From the NCBI GenBank assembly GCA_026625165.1, contig CP112999.1, forward strand, positions 992,001-1,056,000: 64,000 bases of DNA. The letters run 5' to 3'. The translations under genes were made by a program, and so were the position numbers. Positions within the stretch are counted from its first letter, which is position 1. Each line of letters opens with the position of its first letter. Shown in pieces: positions 10,082 through 24,446 of the stretch. The notes under the pieces were generated by a model. The model did not search any database and was not told the origin of the DNA. It worked only from the letters and a program-made list of their open reading frames with translations. The DNA is from Methanoregula sp. (GTDB lineage: Archaea; Halobacteriota; Methanomicrobia; Methanomicrobiales; Methanospirillaceae).

Positions 10082-11680
10082 TTATATGTCCGTCATTGTC
10101 TGCCACTGGCGGACTTTTGCGATAAGTTCATCAGGACGTTTTGTGTTGATCCTGACACGACCGCGGTATACCGAGCCCGTATTTCCATCAATGGATATAA
10201 TGTCACCTTCGCGCAGGGTTACAGATCCGATAGTGCAACGGTGACGCACCGGATCTATGGACAGCGTGATGCAGTTGACGATACAGACCTTGCCCAGTTG
10301 TCGTGCAACCACTGCAGCATGGGATGTCCTCGCCCCGCGGGCAGTGAGAATCCCGGCCGATTTGTCAATACCGGCAATATCATCAGGCGAAGCAGTCTCC
10401 CGTACAAGAATGACCGGCCCGGCATCGGCATCTTTTTCTGCACGGACACTGGACAACGCAATAGTTCCCTGAGCAACTCCTCCGGATGCAGAAATGCCTT
10501 TACCAACCGGGGGCTCTTCGGCCTGGACTGTCTGTATTCCTATAGATGTGAGATCGATGGATATGAGACGATCGAGCGCTTCAGAAGGGGAGATGAGCCC
10601 CTCTTCACAGAGATCCACGGCAATCTGCAGGGCAGCAAGCGGTGCACGCTTCCCGGTCCGGCTCTGCAACAGGTACAGCTTCCTTTCCTGCACCGTGAAC
10701 TCAAGGTCCTGCAGGTCACGGAAATGAGTCTCGAGCCGGTTTCCGGTCTGGAGGAGCTCCTGGAATACATCCGGCATCACCTGAATGATATCCATCTGGG
10801 TCATCGCTTCCCGGTCTCCGGATACCACATCCTCACCCTGTGCACCAAACCGGAAGTCCACGAGCATCTCCCTGTTCCCGGTCCACGGATTTCTTGTAAA
10901 AGCAACCCCGGCCCCGGATGAGGCACCCATGTTGCCAAAGACCATCGCCTGGACGGTGACCGCAGTGCCTGTTCCGTCGTGCACTCTCATCGAGCTGCGG
11001 AACGCTTTGGCCTTCGGGCTTGCCCATGAACGGATAACACTCATGGTACACTGGACCAGTTGACGGTTGACGTCCCAGAGGCATTCCTGCTGGTCAGGCA
11101 CAGTATAAACCTGTTCGTAAATCGTGCAGAGCGTCTTTAAGCTCTGGTAGTCAAGTTCACGTTCATCGGCCACCCCCTCTTTTTTGATCATTTCTTTTAA
11201 GGGTGTCGAGTAGCGCGTTGGAGGATGTGCAAAGATGCTTGTACCGTAATTCTCCAGAAAACGGCGGTAAGAATCGTAAACAAATCTCGGGTTGCCTGTA
11301 TATGCGAGCAATCCGCGGACTGTGACCGGTGTGAGACCGACATTGAGGATCGTGTCCATGATCCCCGGCATCGAGACCGGGGCCCCGGAGCGCACTGAAA
11401 CAAGGAGCGGGCGGCGTGCACCGCCAAACGTGGTGCCGGTCGCCCGTTCTATATGTGCCATTCCCTGCTGGAGAAGTTGGGGGACTTCTTCGCCAAGGAC
11501 TTCTGCATTTTTAAAATATGACTGGCAGATATCGACCGGGAGCGCAAAGCCTGCGGGTACCGGGATGCCTAGGGCCGCCATGTCAGCAAGTCCCGCGGCT
11601 TTATTACCGTATTCTGCTGCAGGAACAACATTCTGCTGCCCGGGCCCGAACAGCGCGAGTCGTGCAAGTGAATCTGACAT
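10082..11680 (-). CDS. Pyruvate, phosphate dikinase homologue lacking the PEP/pyruvate-binding barrel
   Basis: A 532-residue protein that matches the first two parts of PPDK. The ATP-grasp part has Ser-Val-Arg-Ser-Gly-Ala ... Met-Pro-Gly-Ile-Met-Asp-Thr, then Gly-Val-Ala-Phe-Thr-Arg-Asn-Pro and Gln-Gly-Glu-Asp-Val-Val, all typical of PPDK rather than PEP synthase. The swivelling phosphohistidine domain has Ala-Arg-Thr-Ser-His-Ala-Ala-Val-Val with the acceptor at His454. The protein then ends; the roughly 350-residue TIM barrel that binds PEP/pyruvate in the usual 880-residue enzyme is absent. No barrel fragment follows, so this is a clean domain loss rather than a frameshift. It starts 8 bases after a PhoU-like gene and is likely co-transcribed and functionally paired with it. 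The phosphate acceptor is unknown. Confidence 0.85.
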   Translation of the reverse strand: MSDSLARLALFGPGQQNVVPAAEYGNKAAGLADMAALGIPVPAGFALPVDICQSYFKNAEVLGEEVPQLLQQGMAHIERATGTTFGGARRPLLVSVRSGAPVSMPGIMDTILNVGLTPVTVRGLLAYTGNPRFVYDSYRRFLENYGTSIFAHPPTRYSTPLKEMIKKEGVADERELDYQSLKTLCTIYEQVYTVPDQQECLWDVNRQLVQCTMSVIRSWASPKAKAFRSSMRVHDGTGTAVTVQAMVFGNMGASSGAGVAFTRNPWTGNREMLVDFRFGAQGEDVVSGDREAMTQMDIIQVMPDVFQELLQTGNRLETHFRDLQDLEFTVQERKLYLLQSRTGKRAPLAALQIAVDLCEEGLISPSEALDRLISIDLTSIGIQTVQAEEPPVGKGISASGGVAQGTIALSSVRAEKDADAGPVILVRETASPDDIAGIDKSAGILTARGARTSHAAVVARQLGKVCIVNCITLSIDPVRHRCTIGSVTLREGDIISIDGNTGSVYRGRVRINTKRPDELIAKVRQWQTMTDI

Positions 11681-11688
11681 ACTACGCG

Positions 11689-13641
11689 TTACCGATTCAT
11701 TCCTTCGAGTATTGTGTCATGCATGATATAGACGGATTTCATCAGGGAATTGGTCGACTCCTCGATAATACGGGCGATCTCAAAATATACACGCAGCTCC
11801 TTGTAATCGGTGCTCTCAAAGATGATCGCCTTTTCGGTGAGGCGGAGCGCTTCATCGCATTCATGCTCAAGAGAGATAACGCGGTTTACTGCTGTCAGGA
11901 ATTCCTGCATTTCCTCACGGCTGTAATCCTTGCGGATTCCTTGTGCCGCGATAAGCACCTTCAGGTACTCCTGCCCAGCCTTGACTGCCAGTTCAGCCAT
12001 CGAAGCAAGTTTCCGGTTCACCGATTTTGAACTTGTGATTGACGGGAGCAGGGTTGTAAAGAAACATGCTTCTTCCAGTTCATCAAGCGCATCATCAGCA
12101 GCATCGATGAGCAGGAGGAAAAACTCGGCCTCCTCGATCCTTCTGGACAGGGCACGCACCTGCATGACGAGCTGGTCAGCCCGGCTCTCCCACTCTTTTG
12201 CCCGCTTTGCACTGCGTACAACAAAATCCGGATCGCCGGACCGCTGGATATGGAGGAGGGAATCGCGGACTGCTGTCCCGACTTCGATTAAAAGTGATGC
12301 ATGGTCTATGCAGATCTCCACAAGCCCTTCGTGTGCTGAACGGAAATAGCGGAGCAGCTCTGCTTTGATCTCATCCTGTATGAGCAGGCGTGGGTTGTTT
12401 GCGAGGAAGCCGGTGGTTGCGGTCTTTAGCACCCACTTGAGATACTCAATACTGCGGTCCCGCCCGAGAAGCTGGTGGAGGGGCTCTCCATACCGGAGCG
12501 GGACTCTGGCTGCCAGTTCCAGTGCACCGTAAATGAGCTTGTCCCCGCCAAGCCTTAGAAATCCCATGTGCCCAACTTCCTTATCGGCAGCCCAACGCAG
12601 TACCGAGATACAGTCCTTGTTGAGCAGGAAATTGCGCAGCTGTTTGCGTGCACGGTTCCAGTCGATCAGAAAGACTATGCGGGAGCCGAGATGGGAGAGA
12701 AAACCGGCAAGGTCGGCATCGTTTGCAGCAGTATAGGTCCCGACCGAGAGATGGTACACCTTCTTCTCAAACTGCCCGGTGCCCCGGCGGGAAAGGGTGT
12801 CCTGCCAGCGCACCTGCCAGCCTTCAAAGAGGCTCTGGAAGAACTCAAGGCGCTGCATATGGATATCGGTATATACAACCGAGACCGTTTTTTCCTCCAC
12901 GTTCACGACAAGCACATGCGCATCGGTTACCCCGATATCGTTCTGGATCAGGAGTTTGTTCCCCGTGCGGGTTGCTGTTGTACCAAGGCCCGGGTGATCG
13001 AACCGGAGCGGTGAAGTCCGGTTGACACCTGCCATGAATGCACGGACAAGCACATCGTCACCGGCACCGAGCATGTAAGTCATAGCACCATCGATGGTTT
13101 CTTTTGATAGTTCGGTCTGCAGCTGGTTGAGGGCGCGGTGGAGGTCCATGACAAGAAGGTGGAGACTGTCTTGCGATCCCGCATCCCCCGATGTAATCGT
13201 GGTGATTAGGGTTGATGAGATGGTGCCCTCAGGTTCTTCATGGAGCGTTGCAAGCAGGGAATCCTTTCTTTTAATAAAACTCTGCGCTTCGTCGCGCCCG
13301 TGCGCAGTAAAGGGGGCGATCATCTCCTCCATGCAGTCCCATATAGCCGAGAGGATATCAGTCAAAAAGGGGACAGAATACAATTCCCCATCGATTCGTT
13401 GCGCACCCAGTACCACGGTGTCATACTGCTCGGATTCTATACCCGCAGTTTCGCGCTCTGTCCGCATCGTGGGCAAGGCACGTTCAGGATGGTCTGCCCT
13501 TTCCTGTGCTGTCTGGAGGAGAGTGAAGAAATATTTGATCCGGTCATTTGCCAAAAGCGCCCGGTTCACGAGCACCGGCAGGAGAAGCCCGTCTTCACCA
13601 AGTTCCTGAATGATAATCCGTTTCTCGGTCATCTGTCCCAA
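11689..13641 (-). CDS. Large protein with C-terminal PhoU/DUF47-like helical domain
   Basis: A 650-residue protein. Residues about 430-650 are almost entirely amphipathic helix, with repeats of the Ala/Glu/Asp-Asp-Ala-Leu-Asp-Glu-Leu-Glu-Glu and His-Glu-Cys-Asp-Glu-Ala pattern seen in PhoU and DUF47 proteins, which bind metals and regulate phosphate uptake. The first 430 residues are not recognised; they include a beta-rich stretch (His-Val-Leu-Val-Val-Asn-Val-Glu-Glu-Lys-Thr-Val) and no transmembrane segment or signal peptide. It is the first gene of a unit with the barrel-less PPDK (8 bases apart), so it may accept, sense or regulate phosphoryl groups from it. Two inverted repeats lie 74-160 bases upstream. 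The PhoU relation is by pattern and should be checked by profile search. Confidence 0.65.
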   Translation of the reverse strand: MGQMTEKRIIIQELGEDGLLLPVLVNRALLANDRIKYFFTLLQTAQERADHPERALPTMRTERETAGIESEQYDTVVLGAQRIDGELYSVPFLTDILSAIWDCMEEMIAPFTAHGRDEAQSFIKRKDSLLATLHEEPEGTISSTLITTITSGDAGSQDSLHLLVMDLHRALNQLQTELSKETIDGAMTYMLGAGDDVLVRAFMAGVNRTSPLRFDHPGLGTTATRTGNKLLIQNDIGVTDAHVLVVNVEEKTVSVVYTDIHMQRLEFFQSLFEGWQVRWQDTLSRRGTGQFEKKVYHLSVGTYTAANDADLAGFLSHLGSRIVFLIDWNRARKQLRNFLLNKDCISVLRWAADKEVGHMGFLRLGGDKLIYGALELAARVPLRYGEPLHQLLGRDRSIEYLKWVLKTATTGFLANNPRLLIQDEIKAELLRYFRSAHEGLVEICIDHASLLIEVGTAVRDSLLHIQRSGDPDFVVRSAKRAKEWESRADQLVMQVRALSRRIEEAEFFLLLIDAADDALDELEEACFFTTLLPSITSSKSVNRKLASMAELAVKAGQEYLKVLIAAQGIRKDYSREEMQEFLTAVNRVISLEHECDEALRLTEKAIIFESTDYKELRVYFEIARIIEESTNSLMKSVYIMHDTILEGMNR

Positions 13642-13871: not shown

Positions 13872-14375
13872 TTATTTTGTACTTGCTATGGTCTTTGATC
13901 CCCGCAAAATTCCAATCCGTCCTGTCCTGACAAGCTCCTTTACCCCGAATTGACGGAGCAGCTTTTCAAGCGCATCGATCTTACCGGTATCTCCAGTAAC
14001 CTGCAGGATTAGCGATTTTGCGCCGACATCGACGATCTGGGCGCGGAAGATCTGGGCGATCTGCATGATCTCAGCCCTGCCTGCGCCCGGCTCTGCATTC
14101 ACCTTGATGAGTGCGAGTTCGCGTTCCACCCGCTCGTTTTCCGTCAGGTCAGTAACCTTGATTACATCGATCAGCTTGTTGAGCTGTTTCATCACCTGCT
14201 CGACCTTTTCATCGTCACCGATAACGACAATGGTGATCCGGCTCGTACCCGGTTCCTCGCAGGTGCCCACTGCCAAGCTCTCGATATTGAACCCGCGGCG
14301 GGAGAATAGACCGGTAACCCGGGAGAGAACGCCCGCTTTGTTCTCAACAAATACTGCCAGTGTATGCGGCTTCAT
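13872..14375 (-). CDS. ilvN: Acetolactate synthase, small (regulatory) subunit
   Basis: A 167-residue ACT-domain protein, the regulatory subunit of acetohydroxyacid synthase. It begins with Leu-Ala-Val-Phe-Val-Glu-Asn-Lys-Ala-Gly-Val-Leu-Ser-Arg-Val, then Arg-Gly-Phe-Asn-Ile-Glu-Ser-Leu-Ala-Val, the classic IlvH/IlvN N-terminal ACT motif that binds valine for feedback inhibition. The length is standard for the family. Its ATG overlaps the stop of ilvB by four bases (ATGA), so the subunits are made in a coupled way. No ilvC follows within the window, which differs from many ilvBNC clusters. Confidence 0.95.
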   Translation of the reverse strand: MKPHTLAVFVENKAGVLSRVTGLFSRRGFNIESLAVGTCEEPGTSRITIVVIGDDEKVEQVMKQLNKLIDVIKVTDLTENERVERELALIKVNAEPGAGRAEIMQIAQIFRAQIVDVGAKSLILQVTGDTGKIDALEKLLRQFGVKELVRTGRIGILRGSKTIASTK

Positions 14376-16048
14376 GTCGGTTCATGCCCCCCAATCATCT
14401 CATTGATCGCAGCACCTGCCGGGACCATGGGGAAGACGTTCTCCTCCCTCTCGATTCGAAAGTCCATCACAAACGGGCCGTTGCAGTCAAGAGCCGCCCT
14501 GAGCGCCGGGAGCACATCATCGCAGGACTCTACCTTGATCCCTTCAATGCCATACGCGTTTGCAATCTTCACAAACTCGACCGGCGGAAGTTCTGTGAAC
14601 GAATACCTGCGGTCATAGAAGAGCTCCTGCCACTGCCGGACCATCCCAAGGTACATGTTGTTGAGGATGGCGATCTTGACCGGTATGTTGTTGGCTGCAA
14701 CCGTCCCCATCTCCTGGATGTTCATCTGGATGCTCCCATCACCTGCAACATCGAATACGGGCAGGTCCGGTCTTGCAAAATGCGCCCCGATTGCTGCGGG
14801 GAACCCATAGCCCATAGTACCAAGACCGCCGCTCGTGATCCAGGTCCGTGGATTTTTGAAATTATACCATTGGGCAGTCCACATCTGGTTCTGGCCCACT
14901 TCGCTGACGATAATGGCATCGCCTTTAAGAAGTTCGCTCATCTGCTGGATGATAAACTGGGGGCGGAGCCTGCCATCTTTTTTGTATTTGAGCGGGTGGT
15001 GCTGCTTCCAGTGCTTTATCCGTTTTATCCACGAATCTTTTGCGCCGGTCTTCTTAATCGACGCAAGCATATCTTTTATCACAGATTTTGTATCTCCGAC
15101 TATCGGGACATCAACGCGCTTGTTCTTGCCGATCTCGGCCGGGTCAATATCGATGTGGATGATCTTTGCGTTCGGTGCAAACTTTTCGGCTTTCCCGGTG
15201 ACCCGGTCGTCAAACCGGACGCCGATTGCCAGCAGCAAGTCAGACTCGGTGATGGCGAAATTTGCGTACTCCGTACCGTGCATGCCCAGCATCCCGAGGT
15301 TAAGCGGGTGATCTCCCGGGATACACCCGATACCCATCAGGGTTGTTGTTACCGGAATGGTAAGGACATTGGCAAGTCCGAGTAGTTCTGCAGATGCGTT
15401 TGAGCTTATGACGCCACCGCCGGCATAGATGACCGGACGTTCAGCGGCAGCGATCATCTCGATTGCTTTGTCGATCTGGCGTTTGTGCCCCTTATAGGTC
15501 GGGTTGTATCCCCGCAGGTTTACGGTTTCGGGATACTCCACTTTTTCAACAATACCGGTGCTGACATCTTTTGGAATGTCGATCAGCACAGGCCCCGGGC
15601 GTCCAGTGCCGGCTATAAAGAATGCTTCCTTCACGACCCGTGCAACGTCCCTGCAGTCCTTGAGAAGGTAGTTGTGCTTGGTGACCGGCATGGTAATGCC
15701 GGTGATGTCGGATTCCTGGAATGCATCGTTTCCCAGCAGACTTGTCGGGACCTGCCCGGTAATTGCAACGACCGGCACTGAGTCCATATATGCTGTAGCA
15801 ATGCCGGTGACAAGGTTGCACGCCCCGGGCCCGGAGGTCGCAAGGCATACCCCGACCTTCCCGCTCGCCCGGGCGTACCCGTCAGCAGCATGCGCTGCCG
15901 CTTGCTCGTGCCGCATAAGCAGGTGTTTGAGCGTTGAGTTGTATAGCTCATCATAGATTGGCAGAACCACGCCGCCGGGGTAGCCGAATAAGATATCGAC
16001 ACCCTCGCGTTGCAGTGATTCAACGAGGATTTTCGCCCCGGTTTTCAT
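14372..16048 (-). CDS. ilvB: Acetolactate synthase, large (catalytic) subunit
   Basis: A 558-residue thiamine-diphosphate enzyme that condenses two pyruvates to acetolactate, or pyruvate with 2-oxobutyrate, the first common step of valine, leucine and isoleucine synthesis. The N-terminal Tyr-Pro-Gly-Gly-Val and Arg-His-Glu-Gln-Ala-Ala-Ala-His (ThDP-activating Glu) and the C-terminal Gly-Asp-Gly-Ser-Ile-Gln-Met-Asn ... Asn-Asn ThDP/Mg motif are present. Domains run in the usual order: pyrimidine-binding, central FAD/regulatory, pyrophosphate-binding. It is the middle gene of cimA/leuA-ilvB-ilvN, with four-base overlaps on both sides. Confidence 0.95.
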   Translation of the reverse strand: MKTGAKILVESLQREGVDILFGYPGGVVLPIYDELYNSTLKHLLMRHEQAAAHAADGYARASGKVGVCLATSGPGACNLVTGIATAYMDSVPVVAITGQVPTSLLGNDAFQESDITGITMPVTKHNYLLKDCRDVARVVKEAFFIAGTGRPGPVLIDIPKDVSTGIVEKVEYPETVNLRGYNPTYKGHKRQIDKAIEMIAAAERPVIYAGGGVISSNASAELLGLANVLTIPVTTTLMGIGCIPGDHPLNLGMLGMHGTEYANFAITESDLLLAIGVRFDDRVTGKAEKFAPNAKIIHIDIDPAEIGKNKRVDVPIVGDTKSVIKDMLASIKKTGAKDSWIKRIKHWKQHHPLKYKKDGRLRPQFIIQQMSELLKGDAIIVSEVGQNQMWTAQWYNFKNPRTWITSGGLGTMGYGFPAAIGAHFARPDLPVFDVAGDGSIQMNIQEMGTVAANNIPVKIAILNNMYLGMVRQWQELFYDRRYSFTELPPVEFVKIANAYGIEGIKVESCDDVLPALRAALDCNGPFVMDFRIEREENVFPMVPAGAAINEMIGGHEPT

Positions 16049-17535
16049 GTTCTTCCCTCAAGTAGTCTGTTCATTCCGGCGATCATCGCTTCGACACTTG
16101 CCATGATGATGTCGGTGCGTGCGCCTCTTGAAGTAATTATCTTCCCGTCTTTACTTAATCTTACTGTCACTTCAACCAGTGCATCGGTCCCGCCGCTGAT
16201 TGCATCGACATGATATTCTTCGAGCCGGATATCTGCAACATCCCCGATAGATTTTCGGAGCACCTGCATTGCCGCATCTACCGGGCCATCGCCGGTGGCT
16301 GCACCGGTCATCTCTTTCCCATTGACTTCCAGCGTGACCGACGCAGTCGGGATCATGTTGCTCCCCGATACAGCGGTAAATTGCCGCATCCTGATCACCG
16401 GTTTGCATTCGATGGCAAGGACAGCATCGGCTATTGCCATCAGGTCTGAATCCGAGACCCGTTTGCCCCGGTCCCCAAGGTCCTTGATCCGTTTAACGAT
16501 CTCCCTGAGCTGGCTGGCATCGGTAGAATAATTCATTTCGTTGAGCGCCGCCTCCACGGATGCAGATCCCGAGTGTTTGCCCAGCACAATCCGGCGCTTC
16601 CTTCCGATCATCTCCGGCTTGATGGACTCATAGGTCGAAGGCTCCCGTATCACACCATGTGCATGGATTCCACTCTCGTGGGTAAATGCCATTTCACCGA
16701 CGATTGCCTTGTTTACCGGAAGCGGGACACCGGTCAAACGGGAAACCAACAGGGCAAGGTGGTAGAGCTCCTCTTTTTTAATGCGGGTTTTATACTCGTA
16801 GAGGATCTCCAGTGACATGACCAGCTCCTCAAACGGTGTGTTGCCCGCACGTTCCCCCAGACCGTTGACGGTAGTGTGAGCACAACTGGCACCATTTTTT
16901 AAGCCGGCAATCGTATTTGTCATCGCAAACCCGAGGTCATCATGGCAGTGGATCGAAAGAGGAGCAATCTTTGCAAGTGGAGGGATGAACGCTGCAACTT
17001 TTTCCGGGGTAAGGAGACCCACCGTATCGCAGAAGCAGAGCCGGTCAGCACCCCGTTCAACCCCTTGCGCAAACAGTGTACGCAGGAACATCTGGTCAGC
17101 CCGCGACGCATCTTCACCCGAGAGTTCGACAATGAGCCCCCGTTCTTTTGCGTACTCGACTGCGCTGTATGCCATTGAAACGACCTGCTCGCGGGTCTTT
17201 CGCATCTTTTTTGCGATGTGCAGGTCGCTGACCGGGACAACGAGATGGACAGAATCCGCCCCAAAGTCCGCAGCATGGTCAATGTCCTCGTTTAACGCAC
17301 GGACATAGGTACAGATCTCGGCACTCAGCCCGGCATCGGCAATCAAACGGATTGCTGCCCGTTCACCTTCAGACGCAGCTGCAGAACCGACCTCGATGAC
17401 ATCGACACCAATATCGGCAAGCTTTGATGCGATCTCAAGTTTCTGTTCAGGGTTTAACGAAACGCCGGGAGTCTGCTCCCCGTCACGTAACGTGGTATCT
17501 AAAAAGCGGATATTATCGACGAATAAAACACTCAC
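16045..17535 (-). CDS. cimA: (R)-citramalate synthase / 2-isopropylmalate synthase
   Basis: A 496-residue DRE-TIM metallolyase with a C-terminal LeuA dimer/allosteric domain. The barrel begins [11 protein letters not shown], has metal ligands in Ser-Ile-His-Cys-His-Asp-Asp, and ends with His-Glu-Ser-Gly-Ile-His. The C-terminal Gly-Gly-Thr-Asp-Ala-Leu-Val is the regulatory domain. The segment Asp-Ser-Val-His-Leu-Val-Val-Pro, with Lys-Met-Arg-Lys-Thr, resembles my recollection of the Methanocaldococcus citramalate synthase more than its LeuA, so pyruvate plus acetyl-CoA to citramalate (the isoleucine route) is favoured; LeuA is possible. The start is GTG 17535, since the codon before it is a stop. 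The stop overlaps the ilvB start. Confidence 0.85.
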
Positions 17536-17818: not shown

Positions 17819-19129
17819 ATGGATTACGAGAAAGTCCTGATCCCTACGGACTGGTCGGATTATGCGGATGAAGCGGTCCGGCGTGCAGCCGAAATACCGG
17901 GAATCTCCGAAGTGACTCTCCTCCATGTTGCACCCATCCGGGAACAGGAGAGAACTGGCAATAATAATCATGGTGCCCCTGATGCCGGTACTGCAGCGGA
18001 TCTTTTAAAAAGGGACCGGGCATTTCTTGAGGCCAAGGGAATCAGGACAAAGGTCACCATCGAGCCGTCACATCATCATCAGATTGCGCGGACGATCCTT
18101 GAAGTCGCACAGGCTCAGGGCATCATGCTTATTGCAATGGGTGCACGCGGTACAAACCGGATCCGCGAAGCACTTCTTGGAAGCGTTTCCCATGAAGTGA
18201 TCAGGAATGCCCGGACTCATATCCTCCTCATGCACCCGGCTCCACCGCTGATATTTGGTCACCCCCCTCCGTCACCTTCATTACCTCTCTGCGAAAAAGT
18301 AATCTGCCCGGTCGATCTCTCCAAACCATCAGATGAGACCGTGCGCAGTCTTGTCCGGTGTGTCCACCGCCCCAAAGTCATCCTGCTCCACGTGATCCGG
18401 TCCGTGGAATCTGCCCGGCACCGGGACAGTCTTCACCAGCGGGCGATGATACGGCTCACTGAATTCCAGCAGGAGCTCGGGCTGCAGGGTATCACGAGTG
18501 AATTGATGGTACGGACCGGTGATCCGGTTCTCATTACCTGCATGACTGCGGAACGTGAGAATGCCACGGTTATCCTGCTCTCCCGGTACGGGCGGTTTGA
18601 CTATACAAAAAACATCCCGATCGGTTCCACTGCCGAAGCGATCGCGATGCGGGCGACACGGCCCGTCCTGATCCGGTACCCGCAGATCAGACTTGACATT
18701 TTTGTGCGAGAACTTGCCGGCGAAGAGTTTTACCTTGCAGAAAAAGTCTGGGTGCACTACCACCAGCAGAAAGGTGACGTTTCAACCGACCGGATCTTTG
18801 CGGTCTTTGTTGAAGGGACGATTGCCGGTGTTGCCCGGTGCCGGCGTCACCCGGATGGCAACGAAGTTGACGGTGTGTTTATCCTGCACGAATTCCGGGA
18901 CAGGGGATATGCCCGCAAACTGATGCAGGATTTAATCCTGCATTGCGGCAGTGAAGTCCTGTACATGCATTCCACACTCGAACTTGTCTCTTTTTACCGG
19001 ACATTCGGTTTTGTCCCAATACCGGAGCAGGAACTTCCGCCAACGATACGGGAGCGGTTTAATTTTGCGCTCGGGAACATGCAGGGTTCGGATGTCTGCC
19101 CGATGAAGCGGGTGCCCGAAAGCCTGTAA
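17819..19129 (+). CDS. UspA-UspA-GNAT acetyltransferase fusion
   Basis: A 436-residue protein of three parts. Residues 1-142 are a universal stress protein domain (Val-Leu-Ile-Pro-Thr-Asp-Trp-Ser; ATP-loop Gly-Ala-Arg-Gly-Thr-Asn ... Gly-Ser-Val-Ser). Residues about 155-290 are a second, more divergent UspA (Val-Ile-Cys-Pro-Val-Asp-Leu-Ser ... Ile-Gly-Ser-Thr-Ala). Residues about 290-430 are a GNAT N-acetyltransferase, with Glu-Phe-Arg-Asp-Arg-Gly-Tyr-Ala-Arg-Lys as the acetyl-CoA pyrophosphate loop and Phe-Tyr-Arg-Thr-Phe-Gly-Phe near the end. A strong AAGGAGAG lies before ATG 17819. It may acetylate a target when the Usp domains bind ATP; the target is unknown. It is 79 bases upstream of ppk, which has its own box A. 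Confidence 0.85.
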   Translation: MDYEKVLIPTDWSDYADEAVRRAAEIPGISEVTLLHVAPIREQERTGNNNHGAPDAGTAADLLKRDRAFLEAKGIRTKVTIEPSHHHQIARTILEVAQAQGIMLIAMGARGTNRIREALLGSVSHEVIRNARTHILLMHPAPPLIFGHPPPSPSLPLCEKVICPVDLSKPSDETVRSLVRCVHRPKVILLHVIRSVESARHRDSLHQRAMIRLTEFQQELGLQGITSELMVRTGDPVLITCMTAERENATVILLSRYGRFDYTKNIPIGSTAEAIAMRATRPVLIRYPQIRLDIFVRELAGEEFYLAEKVWVHYHQQKGDVSTDRIFAVFVEGTIAGVARCRRHPDGNEVDGVFILHEFRDRGYARKLMQDLILHCGSEVLYMHSTLELVSFYRTFGFVPIPEQELPPTIRERFNFALGNMQGSDVCPMKRVPESL

Positions 19130-19208: not shown

Positions 19209-21350
19209 TTGACCAATCAAATCCCATCTGTTACGAGCGAACTTATGACTGCCGGACCCCCAAATGCTGATTTTTCTGACCCGACCCAATTCATCAACCG
19301 CGAACTGGGCTGGCTCGCGTTCAACCGGCAAGTGCTTAGCGAAGCGCAGGACCAGTCCCACCCCCTGCTCGAACGGGTAAAATTCCATGCAATTTTTGCA
19401 AACAACCTTGACGAATTTTTCATGATCCGTATCGCAGGACTCAAGCGTCAGCTTGAAAATGGTGTGCTTGAAGCGCCCCCGGATGGCATGACACCTGCCC
19501 AGCAGCTTGCTGCAATCCGTGCCGCACTCACCCCCACGCTCGAAGAACAGGCGGCATGCTGGAGAGAAGAGCTCATCCCTCAACTGGCAGCGTCCGGTAT
19601 CCATATTCATACATATGGAACGCTCAACCCTGAACAGCAGGCTTTGGTGCGCCAGCATTTCATTGACAATATCTTTCCTGTTCTCACCCCGCTTGCCTTT
19701 GACGTGTCGCACCCGTTCCCGTTCATCTCCAACCTCTCCCTCAACCTCGCCATCATAATCAAGGATCAGAACCGGGAGTATTTCGCCCGTATCAAGGTCC
19801 CGACACGACTTTTTCCCCGGCTCCTGCGAATCCCCGTGACAGATGATCCCGGCCGCGATGACGATTCAAATGTGCATTTTATCCTGCTCGAAGAGGTAAT
19901 CGCTGCAAACCTTGACCTGCTCTTCCCCGGCCTTGAAGTGGTCGCTGCATACCCGTTCCGGATTACCCGGGATGCAGACCTTGAGATTGAGGAGGATGAG
20001 GCGTCCGACCTGCTGACTGCGGTCGAGGAGGTGATGGAGCAGCGCCGGACCGGCAGGCCGGTTCGGATCGAAGTCCACCGGTCCATGCCTGACCGGATTT
20101 GCATGATGCTCGAGAACAAACTGGGCATCTCGTCACCCATGCTCTACCGCCTGGACCACCCTGTCGGAATGGCTGATATGATGCAGATGCTCTCCCTTGA
20201 CCGGCAGGACCTCAAGGACACCCCCTTTGTCCCGTCTGTCCCGCCAGAAATTGCCGAGGGCAGGGATATTTTTACTGCAATTCAACACAACGACGTCCTG
20301 CTATTCTGTCCCTACGACAGTTTCTCTCCGGTCATAAACTTCATCCGGCAGGCAGCGCACGACCCCGATGTGCTCGCAATCAAGATTACCCTGTACCGGG
20401 TCGGCGCAAACTCCCCAGTTGTTGCTGCCCTCATGGAAGCCCGGGAGAACGGAAAGGCGGTTGCCGCCCTCATTGAACTCAAGGCGCGGTTTGACGAGGA
20501 GAATAATATCGTCTGGGCACGCCAGCTGGAGCGTGCAGGTGTCCATGTCGTGTACGGGATTGTCGGGCTTAAGGTACATGCAAAACTCTGCATGGTTGTA
20601 CGGCGTGAAAAAGAGGGTATCCGCCGTTACCTGCACCTTGGGACGGGCAACTACAATGCCACATCCAGCAGGATTTACACGGATTTTGGGATTTTTACCT
20701 GCGACCGTGAGATCGGAGCGGATATCGCAGACCTCTTCAATTTCCTGACTGGATATGCCCGCATCGAGCAGTATCGCAGGCTCCTTGTTGCACCGGTCTC
20801 TATGCGAATGTCGATCCTGGAGCGCATCGAACGGGAGGTTGTCCGGCACAAAACTGGTGGTGACGGCAGGATTATCTTCAAGATGAACGCACTGGTTGAC
20901 CGGGAATGCATCACTGCCCTGTACCGGGCATCACAGGCCGGTGTCAGGGTTGAACTACAGGTAAGGGGGATTTGCTGCCTGCGCCCGGGGCTTAAAGGAA
21001 TCTCGGAGAATATCCGGGTGACCACGATTGTCGGCAGGTTCCTTGAACATGCCCGGCTGTATTATTTTCATAATGGGGGAGAGCGCGAGGTGCTGCTTGG
21101 GAGTGCTGACCTGATGCCAAGAAACCTTGACCGGCGAGTGGAGATCCTTTTCCCGGTAAAAGACCCTGCGATTAAGTCTGCACTGCTTGATACCATTCTT
21201 GACCGCCAGCTCCATGATACAGAGAAACTCCGGGTGATGGAAAGCGATGGCACCTATATCCGGGATTTTAGGAATTTTGATGGTGGACCGTTCAATGCAC
21301 AGAGCTGGTTTATAATCCACAGGGGGGAATGGCACCGTGGCAGCACATGA
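19209..21350 (+). CDS. ppk: Polyphosphate kinase (PPK1)
   Basis: A 713-residue kinase that reversibly moves the terminal phosphate of ATP onto polyphosphate. The N-terminal region reads Phe-Ile-Asn-Arg-Glu-Leu-Gly-Trp-Leu-Ala-Phe-Asn-Arg, typical of PPK1. Two catalytic phospholipase-D-like modules follow, with the autophosphorylated histidine in Val-His-Ala-Lys and a second in Leu-His-Leu-Gly-Thr-Gly-Asn-Tyr-Asn. The C-terminus has Asp-Leu-Met-Pro-Arg-Asn-Leu-Asp-Arg-Arg. The family is usually about 690 residues, so the protein is whole. The long frame begins at TTG 19209; ATG 19245 is equally plausible. The next gene, a CHAD/HD protein, overlaps its end by 14 bases, and ppx follows. Confidence 0.94.
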   Translation: MTNQIPSVTSELMTAGPPNADFSDPTQFINRELGWLAFNRQVLSEAQDQSHPLLERVKFHAIFANNLDEFFMIRIAGLKRQLENGVLEAPPDGMTPAQQLAAIRAALTPTLEEQAACWREELIPQLAASGIHIHTYGTLNPEQQALVRQHFIDNIFPVLTPLAFDVSHPFPFISNLSLNLAIIIKDQNREYFARIKVPTRLFPRLLRIPVTDDPGRDDDSNVHFILLEEVIAANLDLLFPGLEVVAAYPFRITRDADLEIEEDEASDLLTAVEEVMEQRRTGRPVRIEVHRSMPDRICMMLENKLGISSPMLYRLDHPVGMADMMQMLSLDRQDLKDTPFVPSVPPEIAEGRDIFTAIQHNDVLLFCPYDSFSPVINFIRQAAHDPDVLAIKITLYRVGANSPVVAALMEARENGKAVAALIELKARFDEENNIVWARQLERAGVHVVYGIVGLKVHAKLCMVVRREKEGIRRYLHLGTGNYNATSSRIYTDFGIFTCDREIGADIADLFNFLTGYARIEQYRRLLVAPVSMRMSILERIEREVVRHKTGGDGRIIFKMNALVDRECITALYRASQAGVRVELQVRGICCLRPGLKGISENIRVTTIVGRFLEHARLYYFHNGGEREVLLGSADLMPRNLDRRVEILFPVKDPAIKSALLDTILDRQLHDTEKLRVMESDGTYIRDFRNFDGGPFNAQSWFIIHRGEWHRGST

Positions 21351-22941
21351 ACGCTTCCTCTGCAGGTTCGCAGCAAAACGCCTTGTTCCCCGCGTGAGGG
21401 CATTTGTCCGGGAAATTGACGGGGTCAGGGAGGGCACCAATCCCGACCATGTGCACGGGATGCGTGTCGCGTCACGGCGGCTGCGGAGTGCCCTGCCCCT
21501 TTTCTCATCCTGTTTTATAGAAAAAAAGTACCGGCGCTGGATGAAAGGGATAAAAGCGATAACCAGCGCGCTGGGCAGTGTGCGGGACACCGATGTCCAG
21601 ATCCTGTTCCTTGAATCATATGCAAAGGAACATCCTCCGTTATTCAGGGACGGTTCCGGTATTACCTCACTTATCAAACTTCTCCGCCAGCAACGGGCAC
21701 GCCAACAGGAAGATGTACTTGCGGCACTCGACATGCTGGTCACGGACAACACAGCCGGGGAGATCACAAATGCACTCCGCGAACTATCACTTCGTAAAAA
21801 ACCGGAAAAGAAGGTTATGGAGATTCCATCCGATTTGTACCAGGCGGCAGCGGGACATATCGGATCGGTTCTGGACGCGATGCTTTCCTATGATGCGGAG
21901 CTGCAAAATCCTGATGATGCAAAAGGACATCACAAGGCACGGATTGCGGCCAAGAAGCTCCGGTATACCCTGGAAATCTACCGCCCTATTTATCCGAACC
22001 GGCTGAAATCATCTATACAGCACATCAAAAAGCTGCAGGAATCTTTAGGAATGCTCCATGACTGCGATATCTGGGCGCAGTTCCTCACCCTTGTTGTTGC
22101 AGACCGGCACCGGGCCTTGTCCGGACATGAGAATTTTGGGACGCATCCTTCCGCCACATTTGTTTTTGTTGCTGGCAGTTCTCCTGTCGAACCCGATGTC
22201 GTCCGACTGCTCCTTGACCGGAAACAACAGCGCGATATAATCTACCGGGAACTTGTTTCTACATGGGAGGACTGCAAAGCCCGGAATATCTGGGGCCGCC
22301 TGCGCACTGAGATAAACTCCGCAGCAGAGACAACCCCTGCACCGGAACTTCTACTGCAAGAAAATACAAAAGAATATTCTCTTGAATCTGTGCATGCCCT
22401 TGCAGGATCATTTCCACAAGGATATGAGCATGCAAAACAGGTCACCCGTCTTGCCCTGATGCTCTTTGATGAGCTGGCCCCGCTTCATAGTTATTCCGGT
22501 AATGAGCGTTTCCTCCTTGAATGCGGAGGGCTTCTCCATGATATCGGATGGGTATTCGGGCAACAGGGCCATCATACCCGGAGTTTTTCCATGATAGTGG
22601 ATGATCACACCCTCCCGCTCTCTGACAGGGAACGCACAATTGTTGCTTTAATCGCCCGGTACCACCGCAAATCAGTCCCCGGTGCAAAGGATGAAGTGTT
22701 TATGTCTTTAAAACCCAAAGACAAAAGAATAGTCCGCACTTGTACTGCCCTGCTCCGTGTAGCCGATGGCCTTGATTATACCCATACCGACCGGATCTCC
22801 TCGCTTGCATGCACGATCTCTTCCGATGCGGTGACCTGCAGGTTAGTGCACGAAGGGGATGTCGTTGTAGAAACGGCAAGGGCGATCCAGAAAAGCAACC
22901 TCTTTATCAAGGTCTTCTCACGCAGGCTTGTGTTTGAATGA
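21337..22941 (+). CDS. CHAD domain fused to a Ppx-type HD domain
   Basis: A 534-residue fusion. Residues about 5-300 are a CHAD domain, helical, with basic clusters such as His-Gly-Met-Arg-Val-Ala-Ser-Arg-Arg-Leu-Arg-Ser and Ala-Lys-Lys-Leu-Arg-Tyr; CHAD proteins bind polyphosphate. Residues about 355-534 form an HD domain (Leu-Leu-His401-Asp402, then His-His and Arg-Tyr-His-Arg-Lys) that closely parallels the C-terminal half of the adjacent exopolyphosphatase. The catalytic ASKHA half of Ppx is missing, so this is a polyphosphate-binding HD protein that may hydrolyse a phosphate ester or nucleotide, or scaffold PPK and PPX. GTG start at 21337 overlaps ppk by 14 bases; its stop overlaps the ppx ATG. 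Confidence 0.85.
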   Translation: MAAHERFLCRFAAKRLVPRVRAFVREIDGVREGTNPDHVHGMRVASRRLRSALPLFSSCFIEKKYRRWMKGIKAITSALGSVRDTDVQILFLESYAKEHPPLFRDGSGITSLIKLLRQQRARQQEDVLAALDMLVTDNTAGEITNALRELSLRKKPEKKVMEIPSDLYQAAAGHIGSVLDAMLSYDAELQNPDDAKGHHKARIAAKKLRYTLEIYRPIYPNRLKSSIQHIKKLQESLGMLHDCDIWAQFLTLVVADRHRALSGHENFGTHPSATFVFVAGSSPVEPDVVRLLLDRKQQRDIIYRELVSTWEDCKARNIWGRLRTEINSAAETTPAPELLLQENTKEYSLESVHALAGSFPQGYEHAKQVTRLALMLFDELAPLHSYSGNERFLLECGGLLHDIGWVFGQQGHHTRSFSMIVDDHTLPLSDRERTIVALIARYHRKSVPGAKDEVFMSLKPKDKRIVRTCTALLRVADGLDYTHTDRISSLACTISSDAVTCRLVHEGDVVVETARAIQKSNLFIKVFSRRLVFE

Positions 22942-24446
22942 AGGCAGCCGTTAAGGGCACGGAAGGCCATGTTGTAGGTTTTGTCGATATCGGCACCAAC
23001 TCAGTCCGGCTTCTTGTCGTCAGGTTCAACCCGAACCATTCCTTTTCGATACTCACCAAAAAGAAACAGCAGGTGCAGCTTGGAGAGGGCGAGTTTGAGA
23101 ATGAGGAACTCAGGCCAGAAGCGATTGACCGGGCGGTTGTTGTCTGCAAAACATTTGTTGAACTTGCCCGGACATTTGCCTGCGAGGAATTTGTCGCAGT
23201 GGCAACGTCAGCGACCCGTGAGGCGGCAAACCAGAACGAGCTGTTGAGCCGTCTCCGCAGGGAAGCACACCTTGATGTCCGCGTTATCTCCGGGCGCGAG
23301 GAAGCACGATTGACCTATCTGGGTGTTGCGACCGGGGTCAACCTCGGCGAAAGACTGGCGCTCTTTATCGATATCGGTGGAGGGAGCACCGAACTGATCC
23401 TGGGAAACAAGCAGGACTATACCTACCTTGAGAGCTTAAAACTCGGCTCCATACGGCTGACCAACCAATACATCTCCCCATCAGATACAGGGCCGGTATC
23501 CCAGGGACAATATAAAAAACTTCAGCATCATGTAAAAAACCAGATCATTCATATCGTGAAGAAGGTCAAGTCAGAGAAACCCGATATTGCATTCGGGAGT
23601 TCCGGCACGATTATGAACCTCGCCGAGATCGCACACCGGGCCCTGCACAAGAATTCCGAAAATTCCAATGGCATCCTTACCCACCGGGACTTAAAGAAGG
23701 TGATCGAAATGCTCTGCGCACTCCCGGTAAGCCAGCGGCAGCATGTCCCCGGAATGAACCCGGGGCGGGCGGATATCATTATTGCCGGGGCAGCAATCAT
23801 CGATACCCTGATGAAGGAACTTGGCCTTCTTAGCATTAAGACAACGACACGGGGGTTGCAGGATGGTCTCCTTGCGGATTACCTGTCCCGGATGCATGAG
23901 TTTCCTCTGTTCGGTGAACTCTCGCCGCGCCAGCACAGCGTCCTGCAGCTGGGCCGGTCCTGCGGGATTAATGAAGCTCATGCCCGGACGGTGACGATGC
24001 TTGCGCTGGGGCTCTTTGACTCCGCAAAAAAACAGAAACTGCATAATTATAGCGAGGCCGAACGTGAACTTCTTGAATATGCAACATTTCTGCATGATGT
24101 CGGGTCGTTCATCTCCTACACGAATCACCATACCCACTCATACTATATCATCCGGAATGCAGATCTGCTGGGTTTTAATGAGCGGGAGGTCCTGATCATT
24201 GCAAACATCGCACGATTCCACCGGAAGAAAGTGCCAGGGAAGAATACACCGGAGTTGCTTGAAATCGAACCGGCAGAACGCGAAGTGGTGCGGGTCCTCT
24301 CAATGTTCCTGCGCCTCGCAGAAAGCCTTGACCTCAGCCATGCGGCTCTCGTGCAGGGGGTAAGGTTTGTCAAAGTGGAACAAGACACCGCATACCTTGA
24401 AATCGTTGTGCGGGGCGACTGCCAGCTCGAAATCTGGGGGGGTTGA
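22938..24446 (+). CDS. ppx: Exopolyphosphatase / pppGpp phosphohydrolase (Ppx/GppA)
   Basis: A 502-residue two-part enzyme. Residues 1-310 are the ASKHA phosphatase: Gly-Phe-Val-Asp-Ile-Gly-Thr-Asn-Ser-Val-Arg, Ala-Thr-Ser-Ala-Thr-Arg, and Asp-Ile-Gly-Gly-Gly-Ser-Thr-Glu. Residues about 320-502 are the HD-like domain with Phe-Leu-His-Asp-Val-Gly and Arg-Phe-His-Arg-Lys-Lys. It releases terminal phosphate from polyphosphate. Together with ppk and the CHAD/HD gene it forms a synthesis/binding/breakdown operon. ATG 22938 overlaps the upstream TGA by four bases, so translation is coupled. Confidence 0.94.
   Translation: MKAAVKGTEGHVVGFVDIGTNSVRLLVVRFNPNHSFSILTKKKQQVQLGEGEFENEELRPEAIDRAVVVCKTFVELARTFACEEFVAVATSATREAANQNELLSRLRREAHLDVRVISGREEARLTYLGVATGVNLGERLALFIDIGGGSTELILGNKQDYTYLESLKLGSIRLTNQYISPSDTGPVSQGQYKKLQHHVKNQIIHIVKKVKSEKPDIAFGSSGTIMNLAEIAHRALHKNSENSNGILTHRDLKKVIEMLCALPVSQRQHVPGMNPGRADIIIAGAAIIDTLMKELGLLSIKTTTRGLQDGLLADYLSRMHEFPLFGELSPRQHSVLQLGRSCGINEAHARTVTMLALGLFDSAKKQKLHNYSEAERELLEYATFLHDVGSFISYTNHHTHSYYIIRNADLLGFNEREVLIIANIARFHRKKVPGKNTPELLEIEPAEREVVRVLSMFLRLAESLDLSHAALVQGVRFVKVEQDTAYLEIVVRGDCQLEIWGG

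Follow-up and report, generated by a model that had tools for sequence, protein, structure and literature searches.

A barrel-less pyruvate phosphate dikinase paired with a PhoU-like protein in methanogens: a candidate histidine-phosphate switch

What use is a pyruvate phosphate dikinase (PPDK) that has lost the barrel for phosphoenolpyruvate (PEP) and pyruvate? The question is raised by a stretch of 64,000 nucleotides from Methanoregula sp. (contig CP112999.1, positions 992,001 to 1,056,000; hereafter the window), which is part of a single-contig genome of 2.17 Mb. In this window the gene for such a protein, P0001, lies directly behind the gene for a second protein, P0002 (hereafter the partner), which ends in a PhoU-like domain. 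The two genes were found as a fixed pair in many methanogens and a few bacteria, often near genes for phosphate uptake and polyphosphate metabolism, which suggests an undescribed histidine-phosphate switch. No paper describing this gene pair was found in the literature. The pair has the following features:

10082-11680, minus strand: P0001, barrel-less PPDK of 532 amino acids with an ATP-grasp domain and a phosphohistidine swivel domain (Pfam, alignment to solved PPDKs, catalytic residues)
10319-10321, minus strand: codon of the predicted phosphorylated His454, motif TSHAAVVAR (aligned with PPDK His455; His in 21 of 21 paired homologues)
11681-11688, minus strand: intergenic gap of 8 nt, from the partner stop to the P0001 start
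11689-13632, minus strand: partner P0002, 647 amino acids from ATG (start set by homologues; frame open and conserved)
12343-13632, minus strand: partner N-terminal region, residues 1-430, no recognised family (invariant residues)
11692-12342, minus strand: partner PhoU/DUF47-like helical domain, approximately residues 421-647, with PhoU-type acidic E/DxxxD motifs (PhoU_div in homologues, fold match)

The barrel-less PPDK and its partner

An earlier note on this DNA had described P0001 as a PPDK of 532 residues with ATP-grasp and phosphohistidine domains (His454) that stops short of the substrate barrel, and the searches agreed on both points. P0001 matched the Pfam families PPDK_N (E 3.2e-39) and PEP-utilizers (E 6.7e-21), and no Pfam match was obtained beyond residue ~502. 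The alignment of P0001 to solved PPDKs spanned only chain residues 13-528 of approximately 874, indicating that the whole C-terminal barrel is absent. His454 fell in the column of the catalytic His455 of Clostridium symbiosum PPDK, and all eleven residues checked were kept in P0001, namely K27, R97, R140, E283, D284, D325, E327, Q339, R341, T452 and H454 (in C. symbiosum K22, R92, R135, E279, D280, D321, E323, Q335, R337, T453 and H455, respectively); we take these to be the positions that bind ATP and inorganic phosphate (Pi). Across 21 paired homologues the eleven residues were invariant or nearly so, the exceptions being an E/D swap at position 284 in several rows and a G at position 283 in one. 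The profile scores were 522 bits for PPDK against 96 bits for PEP synthase. Of the features that define a PPDK, P0001 thus has the ATP-grasp domain with PPDK-type nucleotide residues and the swivel domain with the catalytic His; a PEP/pyruvate barrel, whether in the same protein or encoded by another gene, was found neither by Pfam nor by alignment nor by genome search. With its catalytic residues kept, P0001 is still predicted to take up phosphate on His454, as had been proposed.

Nor was a separate gene for the barrel found. The sole PEP-utilizers_C barrel (PF02896) of the window's genome lies inside a PEP synthase of 773 amino acids, 0.84 Mb from the pair. When 27 genomes with the pair were searched with PF02896, the open frames found were of PEP-synthase or PPDK length with two shorter exceptions, one of 744 amino acids in G112, where the match begins 3 bases from the contig end, and one of 507 amino acids in G213. 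No free-standing barrel to complete P0001 was found among these genomes, and one of the two refutations named in the earlier note did not come about.

For the gene upstream of P0001, the 8-bp spacing, an N-terminal domain without a family and a PhoU/DUF47 domain stood as first described, while the proposed TTG start at 13641 was rejected because homologues align from residue 4, which places the start at the ATG at 13632. The PhoU/DUF47 domain was not significant in a Pfam search of the window copy alone. PhoU_div was matched by 11 of 30 partner homologues (best E 2.9e-6), and the copy from Methylocella exceeded the curated cut-off of this family. An AlphaFold model of the partner built on a 6-row alignment (mae283278c805) had a mean pLDDT of 81.5, and its C-terminal fold matched DUF47/PhoU structures with Z scores of 21-25. 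The closest was 3l39 (Z 24.9, root-mean-square deviation 2.6 over 205 residues), followed by the PhoU structures 1t72 and 4q25 (Z 22.4). The acidic motifs E482xxxD486, D513xxxD517, E589xxxD593 and E624xxxN/D628 were kept in all 25 aligned partner copies. Judged by these motifs and by the predicted structure, the C-terminal part of the partner is a DUF47/PhoU domain with the six-helix PhoU fold.

Residues 1-425 of the partner gave no match in Pfam, NCBIfam, PHROG, PADLOC or PDB sequence searches. The N-terminal region contains six invariant histidines (158, 165, 213, 239, 258 and 355) as well as invariant D, N, R and K residues, in homologues down to 35% identity. Between residues ~187 and 324 the predicted fold is alpha-beta-beta-beta-beta-alpha-beta-beta-alpha. 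For residues 1-425, no reliable match came from fold searches, whether run with the whole partner or with its N-terminal part by itself, and Foldseek with residues 187-322 gave none with E <0.001. This segment weakly resembled MotA (Z 8.4 over 104 residues) and YbjN (Z 4.5); such MotA/YbjN-like matches (Z 4-8) and low-probability matches to influenza PA are probably noise. A stand-alone, degenerate copy of the N-terminal domain (334 amino acids, profile E 7.7e-13) was seen at L098:1294-2298 (G079:C33, approximately 3.7-4.7 kb). It is without the PhoU domain and the HPGLGTT and NDIG motifs and adjoins an MFS transporter, and its genome, G079, carries a full-length PPDK. A pattern match at L112 was attributed to chance.

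Inheritance and neighbourhood of the pair

The earlier note had called for a survey of conserved pairing, and 199 genomes from the same class as the window's genome were searched. The partner gene was present in 37 of them and as fragments only in two more. A barrel-less PPDK gene followed directly downstream on the same strand in 36 of the 37; in the remaining genome (G108) the contig ends 55 bases past the partner match, so that all 36 genomes with readable sequence downstream of the partner show the pair. In G185 the PPDK alone was seen, at a contig edge. No unlinked homologue of the pair was found in this survey, so that the other refutation named in the earlier note did not come about either. 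In homologues with a clear start, the distance from the partner stop to the PPDK start ranged from about -17 to +25 nt, and such short or negative spacing is consistent with translational coupling. Outside the window's order, the pair was also present in G388 and G213, from two additional orders of the phylum. On plasmids it occurred in the alphaproteobacterium Methylocella tundrae (with overlapping genes) and the betaproteobacterium Aquabacterium olei, and it was further found on one IMG/VR contig. A full-length PPDK was found in 23 genomes of the class, and both forms occurred together only in G132. No constant third gene was found beside the pair across genera, and no match pointed to a phage or defence origin. 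As the pair is conserved over tens of species, chance association is excluded; the pair is obligate and has one origin.

Three genomes showed damaged copies. At G065:C234:4176-6102 and G113:C12:125611-127556 the partner is broken over two or three frames beside an intact PPDK, reflecting either a pseudogene or a sequencing error. In G141, which belongs to the window's genus, a partner remnant of 28 residues with 75% identity lies approximately 6 kb from ppk (G141:C42:193140-193223), and the pair has probably been lost there.

In a maximum-likelihood tree rooted by midpoint only, all 23 paired PPDKs formed one clade (support 100/100) apart from the full-length PPDKs. Four actinobacterial barrel-less PPDKs fell among the full-length enzymes; these are plasmid relatives of VadK (Rv1127c of Mycobacterium tuberculosis), and Rv1127c itself was left out. 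Because they group with full-length enzymes outside the paired clade, the paired clade seems to have lost its barrel independently of the actinobacterial proteins.

The genes around the pair in the window, recorded as context, are:

13872-17535, minus strand: leuA-ilvB-ilvH, upstream of the pair
19209-21350, plus strand: polyphosphate kinase PPK1 (ppk), approximately 6 kb from the pair
21337-22941, plus strand: CHAD-HD protein (polyphosphate-associated domain), overlapping ppk
22938-24446, plus strand: Ppx/GppA exopolyphosphatase (ppx), overlapping the CHAD gene

The ppk, CHAD-HD and ppx genes follow one another with overlaps, at a distance of 6-11 kb from the pair. Related arrangements were found elsewhere. 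One stretch of G011 reads sixA, pair, ppx, ppk, ABC ATPase (PstB-like) and phoU; G044 has sixA, pair, ppx and ppk; G132 has pair, ppx, CHAD and ppk; and G070 has pair, sixA, phoU and pstC. In G032 and G087, pstC, ppx and ppk lie within 11 kb of the pair, and on the bacterial IMG/VR contig the pair adjoins a divergent pstS-pstC-pstA. With P values that assume random placement only and treat genera as independent, PPK lay within 10 kb of the pair in 4 of 13 genera (P ~5e-6), PPK, PPX or PstC within 15 kb in 9 of 31 genomes and 5 of 13 genera (P ~1e-4), and SixA within 1 kb in 3 genera (g2, g3 and g4; P ~3e-7). In a rough control, the 27 genomes searched had no gene for PEP synthase or a PPDK barrel near the pair. 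PPK itself occurred in 36 of 38 genomes with the pair against 87 of 161 others, a figure inflated by shared ancestry. The linkage of the pair to PPK, PPX, CHAD, pst/phoU or the phosphohistidine phosphatase SixA is new here; it was observed in several independent lineages, far above chance.

The leuA-ilvB-ilvH genes precede the pair in the same order in G388, which belongs to another order, with two extra genes between ilvH and the pair (L124:7465-17464). An operon with these leucine/isoleucine genes was rejected as the context of the pair, as it occurs in two lineages only. Between leuA and ppk, positions 17819-19129 of the window encode a universal stress protein fused to a GNAT acetyltransferase domain. 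On the IMG/VR contig of L108 (L113:1-14741, 15.9 kb) pstS-pstC-pstA and the pair share the contig with phage-tail-like genes, an arrangement that may be a prophage edge, cargo or an assembly join.

Known relatives of the two halves

The closest precedent for P0001 is VadK, a barrel-less PPDK that autophosphorylates with Mg-ATP on the homologous His; its operonic partner Rv1126c serves VadK solubility, and VadK binds methylcitrate-cycle enzymes (PMC13400623). Like VadK, P0001 consists of an ATP-grasp and a phosphohistidine domain, with the PPDK cut after the swivel domain, and has an operonic partner gene and no barrel gene elsewhere in its genome. Unlike VadK, whose actinobacterial relatives lie outside, the paired PPDKs form a clade of their own. 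VadK is tied to the methylcitrate cycle and not to phosphate, and no PhoU domain is reported for Rv1126c, in contrast to P0002. P0001 scored 411 bits against NF004531, the NCBIfam of the VadK type, the cut-off being 456. Compared with full-length PPDK (TIGR01828), the first ~527 residues of P0001 align end to end and the catalytic residues are the same, but the C-terminal PEP/pyruvate barrel is missing, the clade is different and the 522 bits stand against a cut-off of 843.

A second group of relatives consists of the two-component dikinases HpeHI, CreHI and PpsAB (phenylphosphate synthase), which phosphorylate small molecules, and the fused rifampin phosphotransferase (RPH), in which the barrel is swapped for a rifampin-binding domain (PMC12167813). 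As in the pair, ATP-grasp and swivel domains are present in these enzymes, and a different substrate part, carried by a separate protein or domain, stands in for the barrel. The swivel of HpeHI, CreHI and PpsAB, however, goes with the substrate domain, whereas that of the pair lies in P0001 with the ATP-grasp and none is found in the partner. The lineages also differ, all four being PEP synthase/RPH-like and P0001 a PPDK, and no PhoU domain is reported in those dikinases. The C-terminal ~220 residues of the partner resemble the PhoU/DUF47 regulators BT4638 (3l39) and Aquifex aeolicus PhoU (1t72) in fold and acidic E/DxxxD motifs; unlike these, the partner has an N-terminal domain of ~425 residues and a co-inherited PPDK-type kinase. 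The earlier view that neither half fits a described system is therefore not borne out as worded. Each half has known relatives, VadK as precedent for the kinase half and the two-component dikinases beside it, and it is the pair itself that is undescribed.

On a plasmid of Rhodococcus oxybenzonivorans (L132:1825-9135), a barrel-less PPDK of 579 amino acids directly follows a hypothetical gene of 203 amino acids, in a cluster with AMP-binding, biotin carboxylase and carboxyltransferase genes. This is another use of the barrel-less PPDK module, with a different small partner.

Proposed mechanism and alternatives

We give a probability of roughly 45% to the reading that the pair is an ATP/Pi-driven phosphohistidine switch for phosphate/polyphosphate homeostasis, in which the partner takes the place of the barrel. 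This reading is drawn from the PhoU domain, the polyphosphate and Pst neighbours and the adjacency of SixA taken together. P0001 would bind Mg-ATP, phosphorylate its own His454 and release AMP, together with pyrophosphate (PPi) if the Pi-dependent PPDK reaction has been kept. We infer this self-phosphorylation from the full conservation of the PPDK ATP residues and putative Pi residues, and by analogy with VadK, in which it has been shown on the homologous His, autophosphorylation of His454 is likely. The phosphorylation state of P0001 would then reflect the balance between ATP x Pi and AMP x PPi. The swivel domain may dock on the N-terminal domain of the partner, by its conservation the sole candidate docking or acceptor domain, instead of on a pyruvate/PEP barrel, and may pass the phosphoryl group to an invariant partner His or alter the conformation of the partner. 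The PhoU-like domain might convert this signal into control of phosphate uptake (Pst/Pit) or polyphosphate turnover (PPK/PPX). SixA, which is known to act on phosphohistidine proteins (PMC6282199, PMC7948535), could strip the phosphohistidine, as its place beside the pair in three genera would suggest. The phosphorelay or sensor first imagined for this locus fits the phosphate and polyphosphate neighbourhood, and transfer to the partner is what we infer. A complete relay, reading ATP/Pi against AMP/PPi through a repurposed PPDK, a histidine-rich PhoU-fused acceptor and a SixA phosphatase without sensor kinase or response regulator, is put forward tentatively and would be somewhat unlikely in all its parts.

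Several observations weigh against the phosphohistidine switch. About two-thirds of the genomes with the pair show no phosphate gene within 15 kb, although contigs are often short, and the Methylocella and Aquabacterium plasmids have none of pst, ppk and ppx near the pair. The leuA-ilvBH genes beside the pair in G388 and in the window's genus are uninformative on phosphate, and the probabilities given for linkage take the genera as independent. The acceptor role of the N-terminal domain is proposed from its conservation, and this domain has no recognised relative.

The main rival, rather unlikely in our judgement, is a two-component dikinase in which P0001 supplies the ATP-grasp/swivel half, the partner N-terminal domain is where a small molecule or polyphosphate itself accepts the phosphoryl group (ATP + Pi + X -> AMP + PPi + X-P), so that a phosphorylated compound is made or polyphosphate lengthened, and the PhoU-like domain is merely regulatory or structural. 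HpeHI, CreHI, PpsAB and RPH are precedents for it, the N-terminal domain is as rich in invariant polar residues as an active site would be, and a polyphosphate acceptor would suit the gene neighbourhood. However, the pair lacks a catabolic or biosynthetic neighbour that recurs throughout the genera, the adjoining SixA speaks for removal of phosphohistidine, a step that an enzyme intermediate normally does without, and the known two-component dikinases are split between the ATP-grasp and swivel domains, not after the swivel. Less probable again is a VadK-like kinase acting on other proteins of central metabolism, for example acetolactate synthase or isopropylmalate synthase, with the partner as a chaperone or adaptor like Rv1126c. 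Autophosphorylation, the operonic Rv1126c and enzyme binding of VadK speak for it, as does leuA-ilvB-ilvH beside the pair in the window's genus and G388. That linkage, however, was seen in only two lineages, compared with five that have phosphate or polyphosphate genes near the pair, the actinobacterial barrel-less PPDKs do not group with the paired clade, and a mere solubility factor would need neither the large size nor the strong conservation of the partner.

The PPDK reaction can go both ways and in many anaerobes proceeds in the direction of ATP, so the partner might instead feed phosphoryl groups, for example from polyphosphate, to His454, with P0001, AMP and PPi giving ATP and Pi. The polyphosphate genes near the pair would suit this direction, but the partner fold searches found no domain of a known polyphosphate-using fold and no phosphoryl-donor role is known for a PhoU domain, which leaves it improbable. 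That P0001 is a decaying, functionless PPDK beside a PhoU-like gene by chance is already disfavoured and hardly credible: a barrel-less PPDK cannot make PEP, and the partner is a remnant in G141 and broken in G065 and G113, yet 21 divergent copies retain every catalytic residue, and length and co-inheritance are constant over several families and two domains of life.

Phosphate sensing by PhoU proteins is still poorly resolved, and for many archaea, including methanogens, no use of the bacterial PhoR-PhoB route is known. The PPDK nucleotide module consumes ATP jointly with Pi and gives AMP plus PPi, so the degree of its phosphorylation would read out the phosphate/energy state directly, by chemistry. 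A PPDK module tied to a PhoU-type protein, with ppk, ppx, pst and sixA nearby, offers a concrete two-protein system for tests of phosphate sensing in vitro. If the phosphohistidine switch is true, it would be a second, separate use of a barrel-less PPDK besides VadK, and would let archaea and some bacteria control phosphate and polyphosphate with neither a sensor kinase nor a response regulator.

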